From Halodesulfovibrio sp. (GTDB lineage Bacteria > Desulfobacterota > Desulfovibrionia > Desulfovibrionales > Desulfovibrionaceae), in contig QKEJ01000177.1 of the NCBI GenBank assembly GCA_003252375.1, positions 1 through 64,000 on the forward strand: DNA of 64,000 bases. The letters run 5' to 3'. A program made the position numbers and the translations under genes. The notes below the pieces were generated by a model. The model saw only the letters and a program-made list of their open reading frames with translations. It had not been told where the DNA came from and did not search any database. Of the stretch, positions 50,040 through 63,692 are shown piece after piece (positions within the stretch are counted from its first letter, which is position 1; every line of letters starts with the position of its first letter).

Positions 50040-53000
50040 CTACAGCGCGCTGTCATCCACGACGCGGACGCCGGACGCCTGATTGTGCAGGCTGTCCAGT
50101 ACAAGGCGCTTGAAGGCCTTTTTCCAGTCATCCCCGTGCATGTTCTCAACAAGGTACTCCAGCGTGTGCAGGACGGGACGCTTCTCATGCATGTTGATGA
50201 GCGTCCGGGCGATGCCAACCTTGCAGGAGGGGCATCCCACCACGATGGGGGCACCGGCCGCATAGCCGGTAAGGCCGCTTTCCAGATTCTGCTGCTTGCG
50301 GGCGCGCAGCTTGTTGTAGATCTCGGGGTTGGTCATGGCGCCCATGCCCGATTCGCCGCAGCAGCCGGGATTGATGGTCACCGTGGCTCCGGTCAGGCCA
50401 GCCAGCGCCTTCTGGTAGATGCCTGCCGCCTTGACCTTGTGCACGCCGCTCCATTCCGCATGGCAGGCCGCGTGGTACAGCAGGGGCTTGCCGTCGGCAA
50501 AGCGGGGAATACCCAGCTTGTCGCCCTGCTCCACGAGCAGCTGGACCATGTCCTTGTGGATCAGGCCCGGCTTCACGGACGCGGTGAGATCGTGCTTTTC
50601 CAGTCCCTCGCGGCACGAGCCGCAGGCCGTGACAACGTGGGTGACATTGAGCCCCGCAGCTTCCGCCTTGGCGAAAAGGGTGCTCATGGCGGCGAGGTTG
50701 CGTTCCCGGTTGGTCTGGTAGAGCGTGTCCTTGCCCGCAGCCAGCAGCGGGTAGCCGCAGCACTGGTGCGTTTCGGGCATGGTGACGGCGTACCCGGCCT
50801 TGAGCATGAGTACCAGTCCGGCCAGGCCGATATTCCGGTAGAACAGGGAACCGCCGCAGCCGGGGAAGTAGAAGACCGCTTCCGTGGCCGTGGAGCCGGC
50901 TTTCGACTTGGGCAGGAAGATGGATCCCTTGTCCAGTTTCACGGTCTCGGCAAGGCTCTTGTAGCCCATTTCCGGTCCCGGTCCCGAGAACAGGGGGCTG
51001 TCGAAGCCGGAGCGCCACGAGGGCGGAATGACATTGAGCATCCGGTTCTGCAGCTTCTGGCCCATGGCCGCCATCTTGGCCGCACGGGGCACGCGGGCGG
51101 AGGTGTCCTTGGACAGAAACTCCAGCACCTTGGACTTGATGGGGTGGCCGCCGGCGCCTTCCTCATCCACGAAGGCCCGGAGTTCCAGGGCCACGCTGGA
51201 GGAGTTGATCTTCACGGGGCACACGGCCGTGCACTTTCCGCATCCGGTACAGTGCTCCATGAGCTTGCGCAGCTGGGCGAGCAGGTTCTCGTCCGGCTTG
51301 CCCTTGCTGACCTGGGAATAATAGACCGCCTCAAGCAGGGCCCCGAGGCTGAGGTTCTTGTTGCGGGGGTGGTACAGCAGCGCCCCTTCGGGGAAGAACA
51401 TGGGGCAGACCTGCTTGCACTTGCCGCAGCGGGTGCAGACCTGGATATTGGTGAGCAGGCCGATGAGCCGTTCCTTGTCCGCAAGACCGGACGCCTGAAT
51501 GTCCCGGATGAGCCTGTTGAACGAGAAGGTGAAGGGCTTGACCGGCGTCTCCCGCTGCGTGAGCTTGGCGGGGTTCATGATGGAGTGAGGGTCAACCCGA
51601 CTCTTGAAGGTCTTGAGGGCCTGCATCTTCTCTTCGGACAGGAATTTGATCTTGGTGATGCCGATGCCGTGTTCGCCCGTGACCTCACCGTGCATCTCCT
51701 GCGCCTTGGCCATCACGGCCTCGGCCACCTCTTCGGCGTTGTGCAGCATGATGGGGTCGTTGGAGTTGACCGGGATGTTCACGTGGCAGTTGCCGTCACC
51801 CGCGTGCATGTGGTTGGCAATGATGATGCGGGTGGCGACCATGTGGTCGAAGATCTTCTGGAACTGACGCTTCAGCGCGGGATGGGCTTCCGCGAGTTCG
51901 TCAAAGTAGCTGGACGCGCGGTCCAGCATTTCCTGGTCCGAGAGCTCCGAGGTGGGAATCTTGCCCTGTGCCACCTTGGAGGCATAGGTGAACTCCCTGT
52001 TCATGCTCTTGTCTTCCAGGGGCATGCCGTGCACCCGGCCGATATCCTGCAGGGCGGCGCGGTAGGCCTTGCCCATGCACTGCTGGTTCTGGGCTTCGAT
52101 GAAGTCCGCAAAATCGGGGATGACATCGATGGGAATGACGATGTCCTCGTTGATCTTGAACCCGGAGGTGCGGCGGGCAATGGCCGAAAGCTTGTGCCGG
52201 TCTTCCCAGAAGTGTTCCGCTTCGGCGGCGTCGCTTGCAACAAAGGCGTCCACCTGGTCGTAGGGGGCGCAGATGTCCACGATGTCGCGCACGTTTTGTT
52301 CAAGGGCCTGCTCGTCGTTGGAATCAAGCTGCAGGATGAGCACCGAGATGGGAGAGCCCTCGTACTGGGTGGATTTCTTCTGGTACTCGATGGCCTCCAC
52401 GTACTTGATGCCGAACTCTTCCAGCGCGGAAATCTTGACGAGGTCCCCCTGCTTGCGGATGGTGTCCCGCAGCGACACAACCTGCTTGATGACCAGCATG
52501 GCGTTGTGCATGGAACGGCCGAAGAATTCCAGAACGATGACGCGGAAATGCTTCTGGGGCGGATGGCAGATAAAGCAGCCTTCCACGATGATGCCGTCGG
52601 TGCCTTCCTTCTGCACGCCGGGCAGGCCGCCGAGGAACTTGTTGGTCACGTCCTTGCCGAGGCCGGGCTTGCGGATTTCATCCCCCTGCAGGGAGATGAC
52701 CGTGCGCACGCCGCCGGAGACGTCCTTGACCTCGAAGGTGGCGGTTTCGTTCTCCATGATCTTGTGGCGCGGATGGTTCACGCGTTCCACGTCGATGATT
52801 TCCCCGGTGGGAGTGACCATCCGGTAGGAGAGAATGTTGTCGAGGGTCGTGCCGTATTCGAAGGCGAAGGGGCCGCCGGAGTTCTCCGCGATGTTGCCGC
52901 CGATGGTGGACGCGGTCTTGGATGCAGGGTCAACCGTGAACAGCATGTTCTTGTCGGCTGCCGCCTTGATGGCGGTGGCGGTGATGACGCCGGCTTCCAC

Positions 53001-53618
53001 GGTCAGGGTCATGCTCTCGGGATCGGCGTGGCGGATCTTGCTGAGCTTCTGCAGGCTGAGCACGACCGTGCGCTTGCGCGCGGGAATGGCCCCGCCCGTA
53101 CAGCCGGAGGCTCCGCCGCGCGGGATGAGGGCAAACTTCATCTCGTTGGCCAGGCGCACGACGGCGCTTACTTCCTCGGCACTGGCCGGGGCGACGACCA
53201 GCAGGGGCAGTTCCATGCGCAGGTCGGTGGCATCCGTGGAGCACTCCACGAGGGAGCTGGGGCGGGTGTCGATGCGGTCACGCGGGATGACCTGCCCGAT
53301 GCGCCGTATGAGATCCTCGCGGAAGGTGGTGTCGGAGTCGTAGGAACTCCAGAACATGGTGAGACCTTCACGCAGGGTTGTGGCATAGTGGTGCGCCAGG
53401 CCGGGGACGACCTGTTCGAAACGGGATTGTACGCTCTGGCGTACGGTTTCGGCGTCGATGAACGGGTTGTATCGGACGAGGAACAGTTCTTCGGCCAGCG
53501 CGATGGCCGTATCGCGGACAGCCTCGGGCCAGTCCTCGAATTCGTCCAGATCAATACGCAGCACCCGGTTCACCAGTGACTCGGAACTAATGGAAATATG
53601 TGGACCCTTGTGCGGCAT
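50040..53618 (-). CDS. Fused FAD-linked oxidase / Fe-S oxidoreductase (D-lactate dehydrogenase type, 1193 aa)
   Basis: FAD-binding ALIPRGGASGCTGGAIP; HAGDGNCHVNIPV, GEHGIGITK; CTRCGKCKQVCPMF and CTGCGKCTAVCPV; QCCGYPLLAAGK, NPGCCGESGMG. Confidence 0.92.
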   Translation of the reverse strand: MPHKGPHISISSESLVNRVLRIDLDEFEDWPEAVRDTAIALAEELFLVRYNPFIDAETVRQSVQSRFEQVVPGLAHHYATTLREGLTMFWSSYDSDTTFREDLIRRIGQVIPRDRIDTRPSSLVECSTDATDLRMELPLLVVAPASAEEVSAVVRLANEMKFALIPRGGASGCTGGAIPARKRTVVLSLQKLSKIRHADPESMTLTVEAGVITATAIKAAADKNMLFTVDPASKTASTIGGNIAENSGGPFAFEYGTTLDNILSYRMVTPTGEIIDVERVNHPRHKIMENETATFEVKDVSGGVRTVISLQGDEIRKPGLGKDVTNKFLGGLPGVQKEGTDGIIVEGCFICHPPQKHFRVIVLEFFGRSMHNAMLVIKQVVSLRDTIRKQGDLVKISALEEFGIKYVEAIEYQKKSTQYEGSPISVLILQLDSNDEQALEQNVRDIVDICAPYDQVDAFVASDAAEAEHFWEDRHKLSAIARRTSGFKINEDIVIPIDVIPDFADFIEAQNQQCMGKAYRAALQDIGRVHGMPLEDKSMNREFTYASKVAQGKIPTSELSDQEMLDRASSYFDELAEAHPALKRQFQKIFDHMVATRIIIANHMHAGDGNCHVNIPVNSNDPIMLHNAEEVAEAVMAKAQEMHGEVTGEHGIGITKIKFLSEEKMQALKTFKSRVDPHSIMNPAKLTQRETPVKPFTFSFNRLIRDIQASGLADKERLIGLLTNIQVCTRCGKCKQVCPMFFPEGALLYHPRNKNLSLGALLEAVYYSQVSKGKPDENLLAQLRKLMEHCTGCGKCTAVCPVKINSSSVALELRAFVDEEGAGGHPIKSKVLEFLSKDTSARVPRAAKMAAMGQKLQNRMLNVIPPSWRSGFDSPLFSGPGPEMGYKSLAETVKLDKGSIFLPKSKAGSTATEAVFYFPGCGGSLFYRNIGLAGLVLMLKAGYAVTMPETHQCCGYPLLAAGKDTLYQTNRERNLAAMSTLFAKAEAAGLNVTHVVTACGSCREGLEKHDLTASVKPGLIHKDMVQLLVEQGDKLGIPRFADGKPLLYHAACHAEWSGVHKVKAAGIYQKALAGLTGATVTINPGCCGESGMGAMTNPEIYNKLRARKQQNLESGLTGYAAGAPIVVGCPSCKVGIARTLINMHEKRPVLHTLEYLVENMHGDDWKKAFKRLVLDSLHNQASGVRVVDDSAL

Positions 53619-53843
53619 ATTCTGTACTCCCAGTTTAACGGAAAGAGAACATTGCTCTATAGTGACTTTTTCATAGGATGGCAACCAGACTGATTGCTCA
53701 CTCAATATGAGGGATCGAGCAGCGCGGGTGGTGAAATTTGCCGATAATGGCGAAATTTTCCATGCAACGACTATTGGATTCCGGAAAGCCCGGGCATATG
53801 GTAGAGAGAACGTACATAAAGTTTTTTTCCCTAGGTGGGCTCC

Positions 53844-55298
53844 ATGTTTCTGTCATCAGAAAAATCCAGACTTGTCATCGTGCTTGGCGGTGTCATGGCC
53901 GCGGCATTCATCTTTATCGCCGTGGTCAACTATACGGCGTCCCGGAACTACATACGGGAAGAGATTGTCAGCTCCTCGCTTCCTCTCCTGCGGGATACCA
54001 TCTATTCCGAAATTCATTCGGACCTGCTGCACCCCATCCATGTGTCCTCCGTCATGGCCAACGACACCTTTCTCAGGGACTGGGCGCTGCAGGGGGAAAA
54101 GGATACCGACGCCGTCATCAAGTATCTGCGCAGGATACACGAGGAATACGGCTTTTTCTCGGCCTTTTTCGTTTCAACGGAAACAGGCCGCTACTACCAC
54201 TTCAAGGACGTGCTCAAGACGGTCAGCCGCAACGACAGTCATGATGGTTGGTATTATTCCTTCCTGGCGTCCGGGTTGTCCATGCGGCTGGATGTGGATA
54301 CGGACCAGGCTTCCAACAATGAGCTGACCGTCTTCATCAACAACCGTGTGCAGGGGCGTGACGGAAGAACCATCGGGGTGACCGGCGTGGGGCTCCGGCT
54401 TTCCACGCTTGCCAATATCTTTGCCAACTATCGGCGCATGAACGGGCGCAATGTCTACCTGGTGAACCGTGCGGGCGAGGTGCAGGTGCATTCCCGGACG
54501 GCGCTGGTCAAGAATGCCACGCTGGCCGAACTTGCCACGCCTGAAGTGGCAGAGAAGGTCAGGGGCGTACGCAACTATCCCATGGATTTCGAATTTGAGA
54601 GCCCCGACGGCATGGTGTTCCTCACGGCGCGCTACATTCCGGAGATCGACTGGATTCTCGTGGTCCAGCAGCCGGAACGGGAGGCCATGGTTGCCGCCCG
54701 CACCAACCTGCTGCGCACGATAGTGGGTGGGCTGCTGGTAACCCTTGTGGTGCTGGGAACCTGCATTTTTGCCGTGAACCGGTATCAGCGGCGGCTCGAA
54801 ACGCAGATGGTGACGGACACCCTTACCGGGCTTGCCAACCGCAGGGGACTGGAGCTCCGTTTCAGTCTGCTGCATTCTTTGCTGCAACGGGGCGGTTCGT
54901 CGTTTTCGCTGGCCGTGCTGGATCTCGATGGATTCAAGGCCATTAATGATGAGCATGGACACCTTGTGGGTGACAGAATCCTGCAGGCAGTGGGGGATAT
55001 CGCCCGCGCAACCTTCCGTGAGACCGACGTGGTCGCGCGCTGGGGCGGTGACGAGTTCATGCTGCTGATCATGGGACGTGCCGACATGGCTTCCGAGGTG
55101 GTCAGGCGGTTCCGCATAGCATTGGCCGAGCGGGCGATGACGCAGGTGGATGGCCGCGACGTGCATGTTGGCGTAAGCTGCGGACTGACAACGGTTAAGG
55201 CAACCGACACGCTGGATAGTGCCTATTGGCGGGCCGACAGGGCCATGTACGAGGCCAAGCGGGGGCACTGCGAGACCTGTGAGGTGCTTGAGGCCTAA
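53844..55298 (+). CDS. Cache-domain diguanylate cyclase
   Basis: N-terminal TM, dCache-like extracellular region, second TM, GGDEF domain RWGGDEFMLL with an RETD I-site-like motif five residues upstream. Confidence 0.92.
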   Translation: MFLSSEKSRLVIVLGGVMAAAFIFIAVVNYTASRNYIREEIVSSSLPLLRDTIYSEIHSDLLHPIHVSSVMANDTFLRDWALQGEKDTDAVIKYLRRIHEEYGFFSAFFVSTETGRYYHFKDVLKTVSRNDSHDGWYYSFLASGLSMRLDVDTDQASNNELTVFINNRVQGRDGRTIGVTGVGLRLSTLANIFANYRRMNGRNVYLVNRAGEVQVHSRTALVKNATLAELATPEVAEKVRGVRNYPMDFEFESPDGMVFLTARYIPEIDWILVVQQPEREAMVAARTNLLRTIVGGLLVTLVVLGTCIFAVNRYQRRLETQMVTDTLTGLANRRGLELRFSLLHSLLQRGGSSFSLAVLDLDGFKAINDEHGHLVGDRILQAVGDIARATFRETDVVARWGGDEFMLLIMGRADMASEVVRRFRIALAERAMTQVDGRDVHVGVSCGLTTVKATDTLDSAYWRADRAMYEAKRGHCETCEVLEA

Positions 55299-55345: not shown

Positions 55346-58300
55346 GTGCGGAAGGATGCGCAGGAGGCGGCGTTCAGCTACAGTCTCCGGACCGACGCCG
55401 AAAGGCGCTTTGCCCAGTATCAGGAACTGATGCCGCACAAGGTGCGGAATATCCTGCTTGTTTCCACTCCATATGACGCCTGGGTCATGGAAGAGGACTG
55501 CAAGCTTTCCGAGCGGCTGGTCAGCGAGTATCGCGGCCTTAACCTCAGCCAGCCGCCGAGCCTGACGTGGGTTTCGCGGTTCGAGGACGTGCCCCGCACA
55601 CTGGATGAGCAGCACTTTGACATGCTCATCCTGATGTCGAGCTTTGATGACGAAGACCTTGCCTCCCTGCAGGAGCAGGTGAAGCACTGGCATCCCGACC
55701 TGTCCGTGGTGATGCTGACCCACCAGCGGAGCGCCCAGGCCGAGGAACTGCGGCGCCAGGGGGTGGACCGGTGCTTTGTCTGGACCGGCAACGCCGACCT
55801 GCTGCTGGCCATTGTCAAGAATGCCGAGGATCAGCGTAACGTGGCGCGTGATACCGAGGTCGCCGGTGTCCGCGTGATCATTCTCGTGGAGGATTCCCCC
55901 TCCTACATTGCCTCGCTGCTTCCCCTGGTCTACCGCGAGCTTGTGCTGCAGGCCCAGCAGGTCATCCACGAGGGACTGAATCAGGAACACCGTCTCCTTG
56001 TCATGCGTGCCCGCCCCAAGATTCTGGTGGCGGAAACCTACGGACAGGCCATGGCCTACTTCGAGCAGTATCAGGACTGCGTGCTGGGGGTCATTTCCGA
56101 TGTCCGCTTTCCCAAGGGGGGGCTGCTTACCGCGGATGCCGGCGTCTCCCTGCTCAGGGATGTGCATAGGCAGCGTCCGGACGTTCCCCTGCTGCTTACC
56201 AGTTCCGAATCGTCCAATGCTGCCCGGGCGGCAGAGGTTCCCGCCTTCTTTGTGGACAAGAATTCCCCCTTTCTGCTGGCCGAGGTGCGCCGTTTCATTT
56301 CCGAGCAGCTCGGGTTCGGGGATTTCGTCTTTCGGGACCATGAGGGAGGCGAGATCGGCCGGGCTTCCAGCATGTTCGGGGTGGAGAGGATGCTCAAGAC
56401 CATTCCCGACGATGTCTTTCTGGCCCACTGCAGGCGCAACGATTTTTCCCGGTGGTTCTTCGCGCGGACCGAGTTCGAGCTGGCAGGGGTGATGCGTCCG
56501 CTGACCAACGAGGATTTTGCCGGTCCGCTCAGCCAGAGGGATTTTCTGCTTTCTCTCATCCGGGACCGCATACGGGAACGGCAAAGCGGCGTGGTCGTGT
56601 CCTTCCATGCGGGAGATTTTGATCCGGAGACGGATTTTCTGAAGATGGGCAAGGGGTCGCTCGGCGGCAAGGCGCGCGGGCTGGCGTTTCTGTTCCGGAT
56701 GCTGTCGCAGAACCGGTGGCTGAAGGAGCGGTATCCCTCCATCGACGTGACGCCGCCGCGCACCGTGGCCATCGGGGTGGAGGGCTTTGACGCCTTTGTC
56801 CGGAACAACAACCTGCGCTATCTGGCCAAGGCCGATGTTCCCGATGAGGAAGTGGCCAGGCTCTTTCTGGCCGGCAAGATGCCCGGGTGGCTGGTGCACC
56901 ACATGCGCATCTACCTGCGCGAGGTGCAGCACCCCATTACCATCCGTTCTTCCAGCCTTCTTGAAGATGCCCAGTATCAGGCCTATGCGGGGCTGTACGG
57001 CACCTTCATGCTGCCGAACAATCACCCCGACCCGCAGGTGCGTCTGGAGCAGGCCCTGCGTGCTATCCGGCTCGTCTTCGCCTCGACCTATTTTCAGGCC
57101 CCCAAGGCCTTTTCGCAGCGCGTGCAGCTACGCACGGACGAGGAGAAAATGGGCGTGGTCGTGCAGGAGGTCGTGGGGCAGCGATACGGGGAGCATTTCT
57201 ATCCGGCCATTTCCGGTGTGGCCCAGTCCTGCAACTACTACCCCTTCGGGCGCATGAAGACCGATGACGGGGTCATCTCCATCGCCATGGGGCTGGGGAA
57301 GATCGTCATGGACGGCGGTCAGGTGCTGCGGTTCGCCCCGCGGTATCCCGAGCTGCTGCCGCAGTTCGCTTCGCAGGCGGACATGATGCGGAACGCCCAG
57401 GCGGGGTTCTACAGCCTGTACATGGGCAGCGACGAAGCCGTTGCGGATGTGGATAACGGGCAGGGGAATCCGGACCGCGTGGCCCTGCGCGATGTGGCGG
57501 ATGCCGAGCCGTTCGGCCCACTCTTCCGGCTTATCAGCCGGTATGATCCCCGCGAGGACGTGTTGCATGACTCCGCTGATGCGCCCGGCGCGCCGGTGCT
57601 GCTCTTTTCCCGGGTGCTGCGGCACGGGATGTTCCCGCTCGCGGAAGCCCTGGACGACGTGCTGCAGATGGCCCGGCAGGCCATGGGCGGTCCGGTCGAG
57701 GTGGAGTTCTGCGTGGATCTCCCCTCCGAAGAACAGGTTCTGGAAAACCCCGGGTACAAGGGGCGATTGGCGCTGCTGCAGCTGCGCCCCATGAGCGCAC
57801 GGGCCGAGGTGCGCAAGGTGACCATTACCGAGGACGAGGTGCGCCGTGCGTTCTGTCATTCCCGCAATGCGCTGGGCAATACGGAGCGCAGGGATATCTA
57901 CGACGTGGTCTTCGTGCGGCCGGAAACCTTTGACGTGGCGCGGACCGAGGACATGGCCCGCGAGATAGGCCGCATGAACCGGACACTTCTGCAGGAGGAA
58001 CGCCCCTATCTGCTGGTGGGGTTCGGGCGCTGGGGTTCCGCCGACCGCTGGCTCGGCATTCCCGTGGGATGGCAGGAAATATGCGGTGTGGCCGCCATGG
58101 TGGAGACCTCCTCGGAGGCGCTCAAGGTGGAGGCCTCACAGGGGTCGCACTTCTTCCACAACATTACCACGCTGGGTATCAGTTACGTGATGGTGGACGA
58201 CAGAGGGGATGAGCGCATAGACTGGTCGTGGCTTGGTGACCAGCCCACCTGCGAGGAAGGTGAGTTCGTGTGCCGGGTTCGCCTGTCATCACCGCTTTTG

Positions 58301-58354
58301 CTGAAGGTGGATGGACGGAGTTCCCGATGCGTCATCCTGCATGATGCCCAGTAG
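55346..58354 (+). CDS. PEP/pyruvate-binding (PPDK_N-like) protein with N-terminal receiver-like region
   Basis: GTG start; receiver-like segments NILLVSTPYDAW...DMLILMSSF and VRVIILVEDSPSYIASL...GVISDVRFPKGG; then KMGKGSLGGKARGLAFLFRML and TIRSSSLLEDAQYQAYAGLYGTFMLPN typical of PPDK_N. Confidence 0.85.
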   Translation: MRKDAQEAAFSYSLRTDAERRFAQYQELMPHKVRNILLVSTPYDAWVMEEDCKLSERLVSEYRGLNLSQPPSLTWVSRFEDVPRTLDEQHFDMLILMSSFDDEDLASLQEQVKHWHPDLSVVMLTHQRSAQAEELRRQGVDRCFVWTGNADLLLAIVKNAEDQRNVARDTEVAGVRVIILVEDSPSYIASLLPLVYRELVLQAQQVIHEGLNQEHRLLVMRARPKILVAETYGQAMAYFEQYQDCVLGVISDVRFPKGGLLTADAGVSLLRDVHRQRPDVPLLLTSSESSNAARAAEVPAFFVDKNSPFLLAEVRRFISEQLGFGDFVFRDHEGGEIGRASSMFGVERMLKTIPDDVFLAHCRRNDFSRWFFARTEFELAGVMRPLTNEDFAGPLSQRDFLLSLIRDRIRERQSGVVVSFHAGDFDPETDFLKMGKGSLGGKARGLAFLFRMLSQNRWLKERYPSIDVTPPRTVAIGVEGFDAFVRNNNLRYLAKADVPDEEVARLFLAGKMPGWLVHHMRIYLREVQHPITIRSSSLLEDAQYQAYAGLYGTFMLPNNHPDPQVRLEQALRAIRLVFASTYFQAPKAFSQRVQLRTDEEKMGVVVQEVVGQRYGEHFYPAISGVAQSCNYYPFGRMKTDDGVISIAMGLGKIVMDGGQVLRFAPRYPELLPQFASQADMMRNAQAGFYSLYMGSDEAVADVDNGQGNPDRVALRDVADAEPFGPLFRLISRYDPREDVLHDSADAPGAPVLLFSRVLRHGMFPLAEALDDVLQMARQAMGGPVEVEFCVDLPSEEQVLENPGYKGRLALLQLRPMSARAEVRKVTITEDEVRRAFCHSRNALGNTERRDIYDVVFVRPETFDVARTEDMAREIGRMNRTLLQEERPYLLVGFGRWGSADRWLGIPVGWQEICGVAAMVETSSEALKVEASQGSHFFHNITTLGISYVMVDDRGDERIDWSWLGDQPTCEEGEFVCRVRLSSPLLLKVDGRSSRCVILHDAQ

Positions 58355-62030: not shown

Positions 62031-63692
62031 TCAGACGGTGCCCTGAGAGAGCACCGGTTTGTTGGTGCGGAACGTGACGGAAACGGTGGTGCCGGCCTTC
62101 TCGTTGGTGGTGAAGTCGATGCGGGCGTGCATGGTGTCGGCAATCAGTTTGGCGGAGTATGTGCCGAGCCCCGTGCCCCCCTTCTTGCCGCTGGTCACGT
62201 ATTTGCCGAAGAAATTGTCTCGGATGGACTCGGGCACCACGCCGAAGTTATGAATCTCTATGCGGGTGGCGTCCCGGAATTGCAGGATGTGCACGGAAAC
62301 GTGGTGCCCGCGTGGCGAGGCCTCGGCGGCGTTGGTGACAAGGTTGGAAAGCAGTGAGAGCAGCAGGGATTCCTCTCCATCCAGCAGAACCGACATGTTG
62401 TCATCGATTGGGGCGCCGTCCACGGTGACCGAGGCCGTGATGTTGAGGGCCTTGAACAGGGAACGCAGGTTGAGCAGGGCTGTCTGGACAATGGGCAGAA
62501 TGTCAATCTGGGTGGGGGAATATTCGTAGGCGCCCGTTTCCATTTTGAAGAGATCGAGCGAAAGGTTGATCTGTTTCAGCATCATGAATCCGGAATCCTT
62601 GATGTGCTGTAGCATTTCTACCTGTGTCTCGCTGAGGGGGCCCATGCTCTGGATAACGTCCGGCAGGTTGATGATGCCGTTCAGCGGGCCCTTGAGATCG
62701 TGGCGGGTAATGCGTTCCACATCTTCCCGGAGCTGCTGCAGCTTTTTCTGCTCGGAGATGTCTGTAAAGCTTTTCAGGAGGTAGCGCTTCCCCTGAATGG
62801 TTATTTCCTTGACGTTTTCAATAATGGGAATGGTGGTCTGCGCCATGGTGTGGATGGTCCGTTCGGCGTTGACCGTACTGGCTCCTTTTGCATGGAAGGG
62901 ACAGTATTCATCCGGCTCAAAGCAGATGGTGCCGTAGCATGGCTTCCCGAGCAGTTCCTCCCGTGTGGTCATGAGCATGCTCAGGGCAGCCGGGTTGGCC
63001 TCGGTGATAATCTGGGTCTGGCCGTCGATGAGCAGGACGCCGGCCTGGATGGAGTCCAGAATGAGCGAGAGTTTGGCGTTTGCCTCCTGCAGATCCTGCG
63101 TGCGCCGTAGGATCTTGGATTCCAGCCGCCTGTTGTCGTCCTTGAAAAGCTTGTTGAGCTCAAAGCTCTCCAGTGCGTGGGCAGCCGAGAGCATGACGAC
63201 GGAGAAGAGCCGGTTGGTGGTGTCCAGAATGTCGTCCTTGCTCTGGTTCAGCAGGCCCACAAACATGCCGTGCACCCTCGTGGGGCTGCCGATGACATGC
63301 AACAGCAGATGCTGCGTTTTGTCATCTGTCAGAAAGTAATGCGGTTCTGGACTGTTAAGGGCAAATGCAAAGGAATTGTCGTTGATGAGGGTGTTCACGT
63401 AGCCCTCAATGCGGGGAATCTGGTCCTCCGGTTCACACAGGGTGAGAAGGAAATCGTAGGGTTCGTCCTGCGCAAGATAGACGGCAGCTGCCTGCAGGCC
63501 CACCATGCTCCCGATTCGGGCGCACATTTCGCGCAGCACAGGCTTCTGGTCCTGGTGCTGGGTCAGGGAGGGGGCAAAGCTTCCGAGGGCGGAAGCAAGG
63601 TCCAGCGCATCCATGGCGGCGGCGCGTTCCCTGCGGAGCAATTCCAGTTGCTGCTCCTGAAAGCGTACGATCTGTTCCAGTTCCACTGTCAT
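62031..63692 (-). CDS. GAF/PAS sensor histidine kinase
   Basis: RITRHDLKGPLNGIINLPDVIQ phosphoacceptor region; C-terminal GGTGLGTYSAKLIADTMHARIDF ATP lid. Confidence 0.9.
   Translation of the reverse strand: MTVELEQIVRFQEQQLELLRRERAAAMDALDLASALGSFAPSLTQHQDQKPVLREMCARIGSMVGLQAAAVYLAQDEPYDFLLTLCEPEDQIPRIEGYVNTLINDNSFAFALNSPEPHYFLTDDKTQHLLLHVIGSPTRVHGMFVGLLNQSKDDILDTTNRLFSVVMLSAAHALESFELNKLFKDDNRRLESKILRRTQDLQEANAKLSLILDSIQAGVLLIDGQTQIITEANPAALSMLMTTREELLGKPCYGTICFEPDEYCPFHAKGASTVNAERTIHTMAQTTIPIIENVKEITIQGKRYLLKSFTDISEQKKLQQLREDVERITRHDLKGPLNGIINLPDVIQSMGPLSETQVEMLQHIKDSGFMMLKQINLSLDLFKMETGAYEYSPTQIDILPIVQTALLNLRSLFKALNITASVTVDGAPIDDNMSVLLDGEESLLLSLLSNLVTNAAEASPRGHHVSVHILQFRDATRIEIHNFGVVPESIRDNFFGKYVTSGKKGGTGLGTYSAKLIADTMHARIDFTTNEKAGTTVSVTFRTNKPVLSQGTV

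Follow-up and report, generated by a model that had tools for sequence, protein, structure and literature searches.

The window analysed here is a 64,000-nucleotide stretch of Halodesulfovibrio sp. DNA (contig QKEJ01000177.1), and at 55346-58354 on its forward strand lies a 1002-residue reading frame with GTG as the start codon (Table 1). Pfam placed a PPDK_N domain (PF01326) at residues 438-830 (E 1.7e-32) and, weakly, Response_reg at residues 73-154 (E 2e-4, under the curated cut-off). Past residue 830 the protein gave zero Pfam matches, and both PEP-utilizers (PF00391) and PEP-utilizers_C (PF02896) were absent. The initial annotation had described a PPDK_N-type ATP-grasp region with neither a phosphohistidine swivel domain nor a PEP-utilising TIM barrel, and hence an incomplete PEP synthase; both parts of this description held. 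Full-length homologues at 41-77% identity occur in more than 90 genomes, so the layout of the 1002-residue protein is not due to chance. They include those of 18 close genomes (its own among them, and one copy divided between two contigs) and of at least 80 named genomes, mainly of Desulfobacterota, with Chloroflexota and one Victivallales. Homologues were also found in Parabacteroides, Phocaeicola and Prevotella at 35-37% identity. The record of a Bacteroidota homologue is annotated as 'PEP/pyruvate-binding domain-containing protein', the kind of name that the initial annotation had predicted when it picked this protein as poorly described, which it is. PADLOC gave zero match for the locus, and a role as a defence system was rejected on this result.

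Table 1. Features of the 55346-58354 gene and its upstream neighbour (window coordinates)
Feature	Coordinates	Strand	Basis
Diguanylate cyclase gene (dCache-GGDEF), 47 bp upstream of the 55346 gene	53835..55298	+	Pfam; occupies the place of gdhA in sister species
Whole gene, receiver-receiver-(helical linker)-PPDK_N ATP-grasp-CTD, 1002 aa	55346..58354	+	Open frame; full-length homologues
Receiver 1, residues ~33-148, aspartate-less pseudo-receiver	55442..55789	+	AlphaFold2 receiver fold; weak Response_reg match at 73-154; strand-3 end without Asp
Receiver 2, residues ~175-325, five active-site residues, long insertion after strand 1	55868..56320	+	Conservation (n=74); AlphaFold2; PleD match
Codon of D252, predicted phospho-acceptor Asp	56099..56101	+	Invariant in 74 homologues
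PPDK_N ATP-grasp, residues 438-830, with K442, R534, T553, E785/E787, Q812/R814	56657..57835	+	PF01326; invariant ATP-site residues
C-terminal domain (CTD), residues 835-1002, unassigned alpha/beta fold	57848..58351	+	AlphaFold2 model of residues 826-1002, pLDDT 90.7
GxGRWG motif, residues 892-897	58019..58036	+	G892, G894, R895, W896 and G897 in 127-128 of 128 sequences, all architectures
Codon of E920	58103..58105	+	Invariant, 128/128
SQGSHFF motif, residues 931-937	58136..58156	+	S931, G933, H935 and F936 in 128/128; F937 in 127/128

Three more genomes of this genus also have a same-strand GGDEF gene upstream, at a distance of 47-113 bp across all four. Given this neighbour, c-di-GMP may share a signal with the 55346-58354 protein. 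On the reverse strand at 50040-53705, a 1221-residue protein is encoded, apparently of the glycolate/D-lactate dehydrogenase type, with an FAD-binding oxidase fused to Fe-S and cysteine-rich parts, and this gene is kept beside the locus in the sister genomes bearing the GGDEF gene.

Receivers and the ATP-grasp domain

The AlphaFold2 model (74 sequences; pLDDT 84, pTM 0.78) has two beta/alpha receiver folds with a long helix between them, and the two-receiver protein PleD was among the Foldseek matches (E 3.5e-7). The two receiver-like segments noticed originally are thus real folds. Among the 74 homologues, E182, D252, S286 and K305 of receiver 2 are invariant and D183 is more than 90% conserved. 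Receiver 1 has M97/S98 where strand 3 ends, and the Asp residue is missing. By the published definition separating true receivers from pseudo-receivers (PMC12632262), the residues present and absent class receiver 2 among the true receivers and receiver 1 among the pseudo-receivers. Conservation of the receiver aspartate, a point that the initial annotation had marked for checking, therefore holds for receiver 2 and fails for receiver 1. With all five active-site residues, receiver 2 is, judged by these residues, competent, in line with the signal control supposed at the outset. We found no specific partner kinase for receiver 2; a GAF-PAS-HisKA-HATPase sensor kinase encoded 3.7 kb from the gene (62031-63692, reverse strand) is a possible candidate.

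Rifampin phosphotransferase (5hv3, E 7e-11) was the best solved fold match, and PEP synthases were also among the nearest solved relatives. All 74 homologues keep K442, R534, T553, E785, E787, Q812 and R814 of the ATP-grasp domain unchanged, so that the ATP-grasp residues are not degenerate, the outcome that would have spoken against the initial reading. The ATP-site columns are shared with four other PPDK_N proteins of the same genome and with the other architectures described below, the exceptions in the alignment being a conservative E/D swap at 785 and a T/S swap at 553. Judged by where they fall in the shared motifs, K442 and R534 probably correspond to Lys22 and Arg117 of rifampin phosphotransferase, mutation of either of which abolished rifampin resistance (PMC4844700). 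As far as its residues can tell, the PEP-synthase-type ATP site is intact.

The C-terminal domain and its family

The ATP-grasp domain is followed by a region of about 170 residues with the family signature GPGRWG...E...SxG[ST]HFF. In 128 sequences of all architectures, G894, R895, G897, G904, E920, S931, G933, H935 and F936 never vary, so that an invariant Arg, Glu and His are common to all of them, and H935 opens a helix in the AlphaFold2 model. A PDB fold search with the CTD model gave no match (best E 9e-3, TM up to 0.36), nor did the CTD match any viral-fold, PDB-profile or Pfam family. The initial annotation, which saw in the protein the nucleotide/pyruvate-binding half of PEP synthase, was right about the ATP-grasp domain and overlooked this conserved domain with its invariant His, Arg and Glu.

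The position of the CTD directly after the ATP-grasp domain is that of the phosphohistidine swivel domain in dikinases. The CTD could accordingly be regarded as a strongly diverged swivel, the protein then being a normal dikinase without the barrel, and its invariant His at a helix start following a strand, as well as a look-alike stretch ('SHFFHNITTLGI' vs 'SHAAIIARELGI'), suggested such a cryptic swivel by eye. However, hhalign gave a probability below 1% for the CTD against the swivel with both narrow and wide profiles, the 50 top-ranked PDB fold matches of the CTD contained no swivel structure, and the swivel motif T/SxxGGxxxH (PMC12167813) is missing from the protein. We rejected homology on the basis of the profile-profile comparison and the fold search and regard this explanation as very improbable. 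We therefore treat the CTD, on present sequence comparisons, as a separate domain in the place of the swivel without a recognised fold.

The protein differs from the known dikinases in more than one respect. It shares the ATP-grasp Lys, Arg, Glu, Gln and Arg with PEP synthase and pyruvate phosphate dikinase (PF01326+PF00391+PF02896), but has receivers in front, an unrelated CTD and neither the swivel His domain nor the PEP/pyruvate TIM barrel. Rifampin phosphotransferase and the two-component dikinases HpeHI, CreHI and PpsAB likewise combine a dikinase-type ATP-grasp with a non-PEP second domain, but they need the T/SxxGGxxxH swivel (PMC12167813, PMC4844700). From the rifampin phosphotransferase-type set of ATP-grasp, substrate-binding domain and His swivel, the protein shares only the ATP-grasp. 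A free-standing His acceptor, as the initial annotation had supposed, was not supported: no stand-alone His-domain partner was found among the seven PF00391 domains of the genome, all of which lie inside proteins with open frames of at least 591 residues, and the gene context points instead to glutamate dehydrogenase (GDH; see below). Several proteins of 846-962 residues on two contigs of the same genome (C26 and C200; L002-L005, L118) carry PF00391 but did not match PEP-utilizers_C. PPDK_N is present in at least four of these proteins as well, and the group has a common C-terminal region, LTDP...CR..HD..R..HE. They are a further uncharacterised dikinase-like group.

We searched 395 genomes of the phylum (Desulfobacterota) with a CTD profile and found the core in 115 of them (~29%). 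PPDK_N precedes the CTD in every member whose sequence was read. The N-termini are of different kinds, namely two receivers (~1000 residues in total), an unassigned domain of about 230 residues (~880) or mainly helical and other segments (~760-1070). The ATP-grasp domain and the CTD therefore form the unvarying core of a large family whose N-termini are of at least three kinds. Such an arrangement, one fixed effector core behind N-termini that can be swapped, is that of a regulator. In two members of the second kind (L224 and L231), the ~230-residue domain has an invariant GDN and no obvious P-loop. A sequence impression had suggested the name 'KaiC-like' for this type; we dropped it, as neither Pfam nor PDB profiles gave anything reliable.

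Association with glutamate dehydrogenase

When the neighbours at 96 receiver-type loci were clustered, one cluster clearly led all others with 34 loci, and Pfam and NCBIfam identified it as NADP-specific GDH. Over all 156 core loci, a few species being counted twice and many contigs being short, GDH lies in the fetched DNA at 77 and is the immediate neighbour at 59, against an estimated chance of immediate adjacency of ~0.1% (1-2 GDH genes per about 3,500). GDH was nearby at 44 of the 109 receiver-type, 24 of the 34 second-type and nine of the 13 other loci, and was absent from the examined DNA, some of it on short contigs, at ~60% of the receiver-type loci. Its placement relative to the core gene takes four arrangements, on either side of that gene and in either orientation, and the GDH-linked cores include all N-termini and two GDH subfamilies. 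The shortest core type lies directly behind a GDH of a different subfamily, with two loci overlapping by 10 and 25 bp. At three loci (L251, L252 and L254), the shortest core type and a GDH of about 416 residues, which is nearest to the archaeal GdhA model, make up an apparent operon; the genes of a pair are separated by 3 bp or overlap by at most 25 bp. No one-gene fusion of GDH and core was flagged in the 156 loci.

The co-occurrence across genomes, for which the locus adjacency provides independent data, points in the same direction. Among the 395 phylum genomes, GDH was found in 111/115 with the core and in 93/281 without it (Fisher test 2e-35, uncorrected for relatedness). Two of the four genomes with the core but no GDH match are less than 90% complete. 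Genomes often have a GDH without the core but rarely the core without a GDH, the pattern to be expected of an accessory factor. Among the close genomes (own included), GDH is present in 22/23 with the family and in 7/36 without it. The tree of receiver-type proteins requires a minimum of 24 changes of adjacency and of six changes of arrangement; the association is thus not one frozen neighbourhood. In the GDH tree, the GDHs of core-less Desulfovibrionaceae group in a separate clade (support 100) apart from the partner-linked GDHs, which have a few specific residue differences that are confounded with phylogeny and from which we derive no modification site.

At the window locus itself, the genes are not adjacent. 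Six sister genomes have gdhA just upstream in place of the diguanylate cyclase gene, and the gdhA of the window genome, which falls inside the receiver-linked GDH clade, is on another contig (contig 162). With the GGDEF gene upstream, the window species has kept the core and gdhA but not their adjacency. In the Bacteroidota Parabacteroides distasonis and Phocaeicola massiliensis, a 36%-identical full-length homologue adjoins gdhA divergently; a scan of viral contigs with the Bacteroidota homologue gave no match. Our search of the literature for the ATP-grasp+CTD family together with GDH found nothing, and GDH as the partner of this core is new here.

A possible switch for glutamate dehydrogenase

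Because the family genes recur beside the GDH gene, the protein probably controls GDH, the key ammonia-assimilating enzyme. The reading that we favour with some confidence is a signal-controlled, ATP-dependent regulator of GDH, either an activator or a modifier, and we infer that it targets the enzyme directly, as well as the chemistry. A sensor kinase would phosphorylate D252, which would open or close the ATP-grasp/CTD core, and the core would spend ATP to switch GDH activity, most simply via phosphoryl transfer. The CTD, perhaps via H935, might take over the job done by the swivel domain in dikinases. Phosphoryl transfer through H935 is a guess, since the CTD has neither a recognised fold nor the swivel motif.

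The genomic association could in principle arise from hitch-hiking of unrelated genes, as the window locus and many others have no GDH nearby. The repeated changes of adjacency on the tree, the four arrangements, the several architectures and phyla, and the strong genome-wide co-occurrence make this extremely improbable. The protein might instead be a metabolic small-molecule dikinase or ligase that acts alongside GDH in glutamate or 2-oxoglutarate metabolism, comparable to the rifampin and phenol dikinases, with the receivers only tuning it. The fully retained ATP site, the nearest solved relatives (rifampin phosphotransferase and PEP synthases) and the active-site look of the CTD invariants would fit such an enzyme. 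We consider it unlikely, because variable N-termini, two receivers among them, are what one expects in regulators, the core goes with two GDH subfamilies, GDH outstrips every other recurring pathway partner and the protein lacks a swivel domain. By analogy with GarA/OdhI, the core might also have no catalytic role and, as a nucleotide sensor, bind GDH or aid its assembly, as its link to GDH and the direct binding through which GarA works on GDH (PMC5448819) would allow. But in every architecture the CTD motif and the ATP-grasp residues of catalytic type stay invariant, beyond what binding alone would need, which renders such a partner quite unlikely.

For the favoured regulator of GDH, the nearest counterpart by role is GarA/OdhI of Actinobacteria, a dedicated protein controlling GDH by nutrients, described as a phosphoprotein that is set by a Ser/Thr kinase and binds its target enzymes (PMC5448819). 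Carbon and nitrogen metabolism meet at GDH. If the protein is a regulator, it would fill a gap in the control of glutamate and ammonia in anaerobes, the family being present in ~29% of the sampled phylum genomes, in gut Bacteroidota and in Chloroflexota. The family, annotated merely as PEP-binding protein, adds a domain without known fold, and through it a Bacteroides observation made 30 years ago gains a gene that can be tested. That observation is, according to the title of Baggio & Morrison 1996 (cited in PMC4539542), that GDH activity of Bacteroides thetaiotaomicron depends on trans-acting gene(s) downstream of gdhA. Family members adjoin gdhA in related Bacteroidales, and the ATP-grasp+CTD family is a natural candidate for the gene(s), which by that title likewise act on GDH and lie near gdhA. 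The abstract reportedly describes a segment of about 3 kb that restores activity in E. coli with the transcript unchanged. The Parabacteroides family gene measures 2.96 kb but is divergent from the adjacent gdhA, in contrast to the downstream position given in the B. thetaiotaomicron title. If the trans-acting gene belongs to the family, the 1996 paper suggests activation as the direction of control. More tentatively, the family might represent a new metabolic switch, in which interchangeable signal modules on the ATP-grasp and a new catalytic domain covalently and reversibly modify GDH; the post-translational control so far missing from ammonia assimilation in many anaerobes would then be supplied, and the 1996 trans-factor for GDH in Bacteroides would have its gene.
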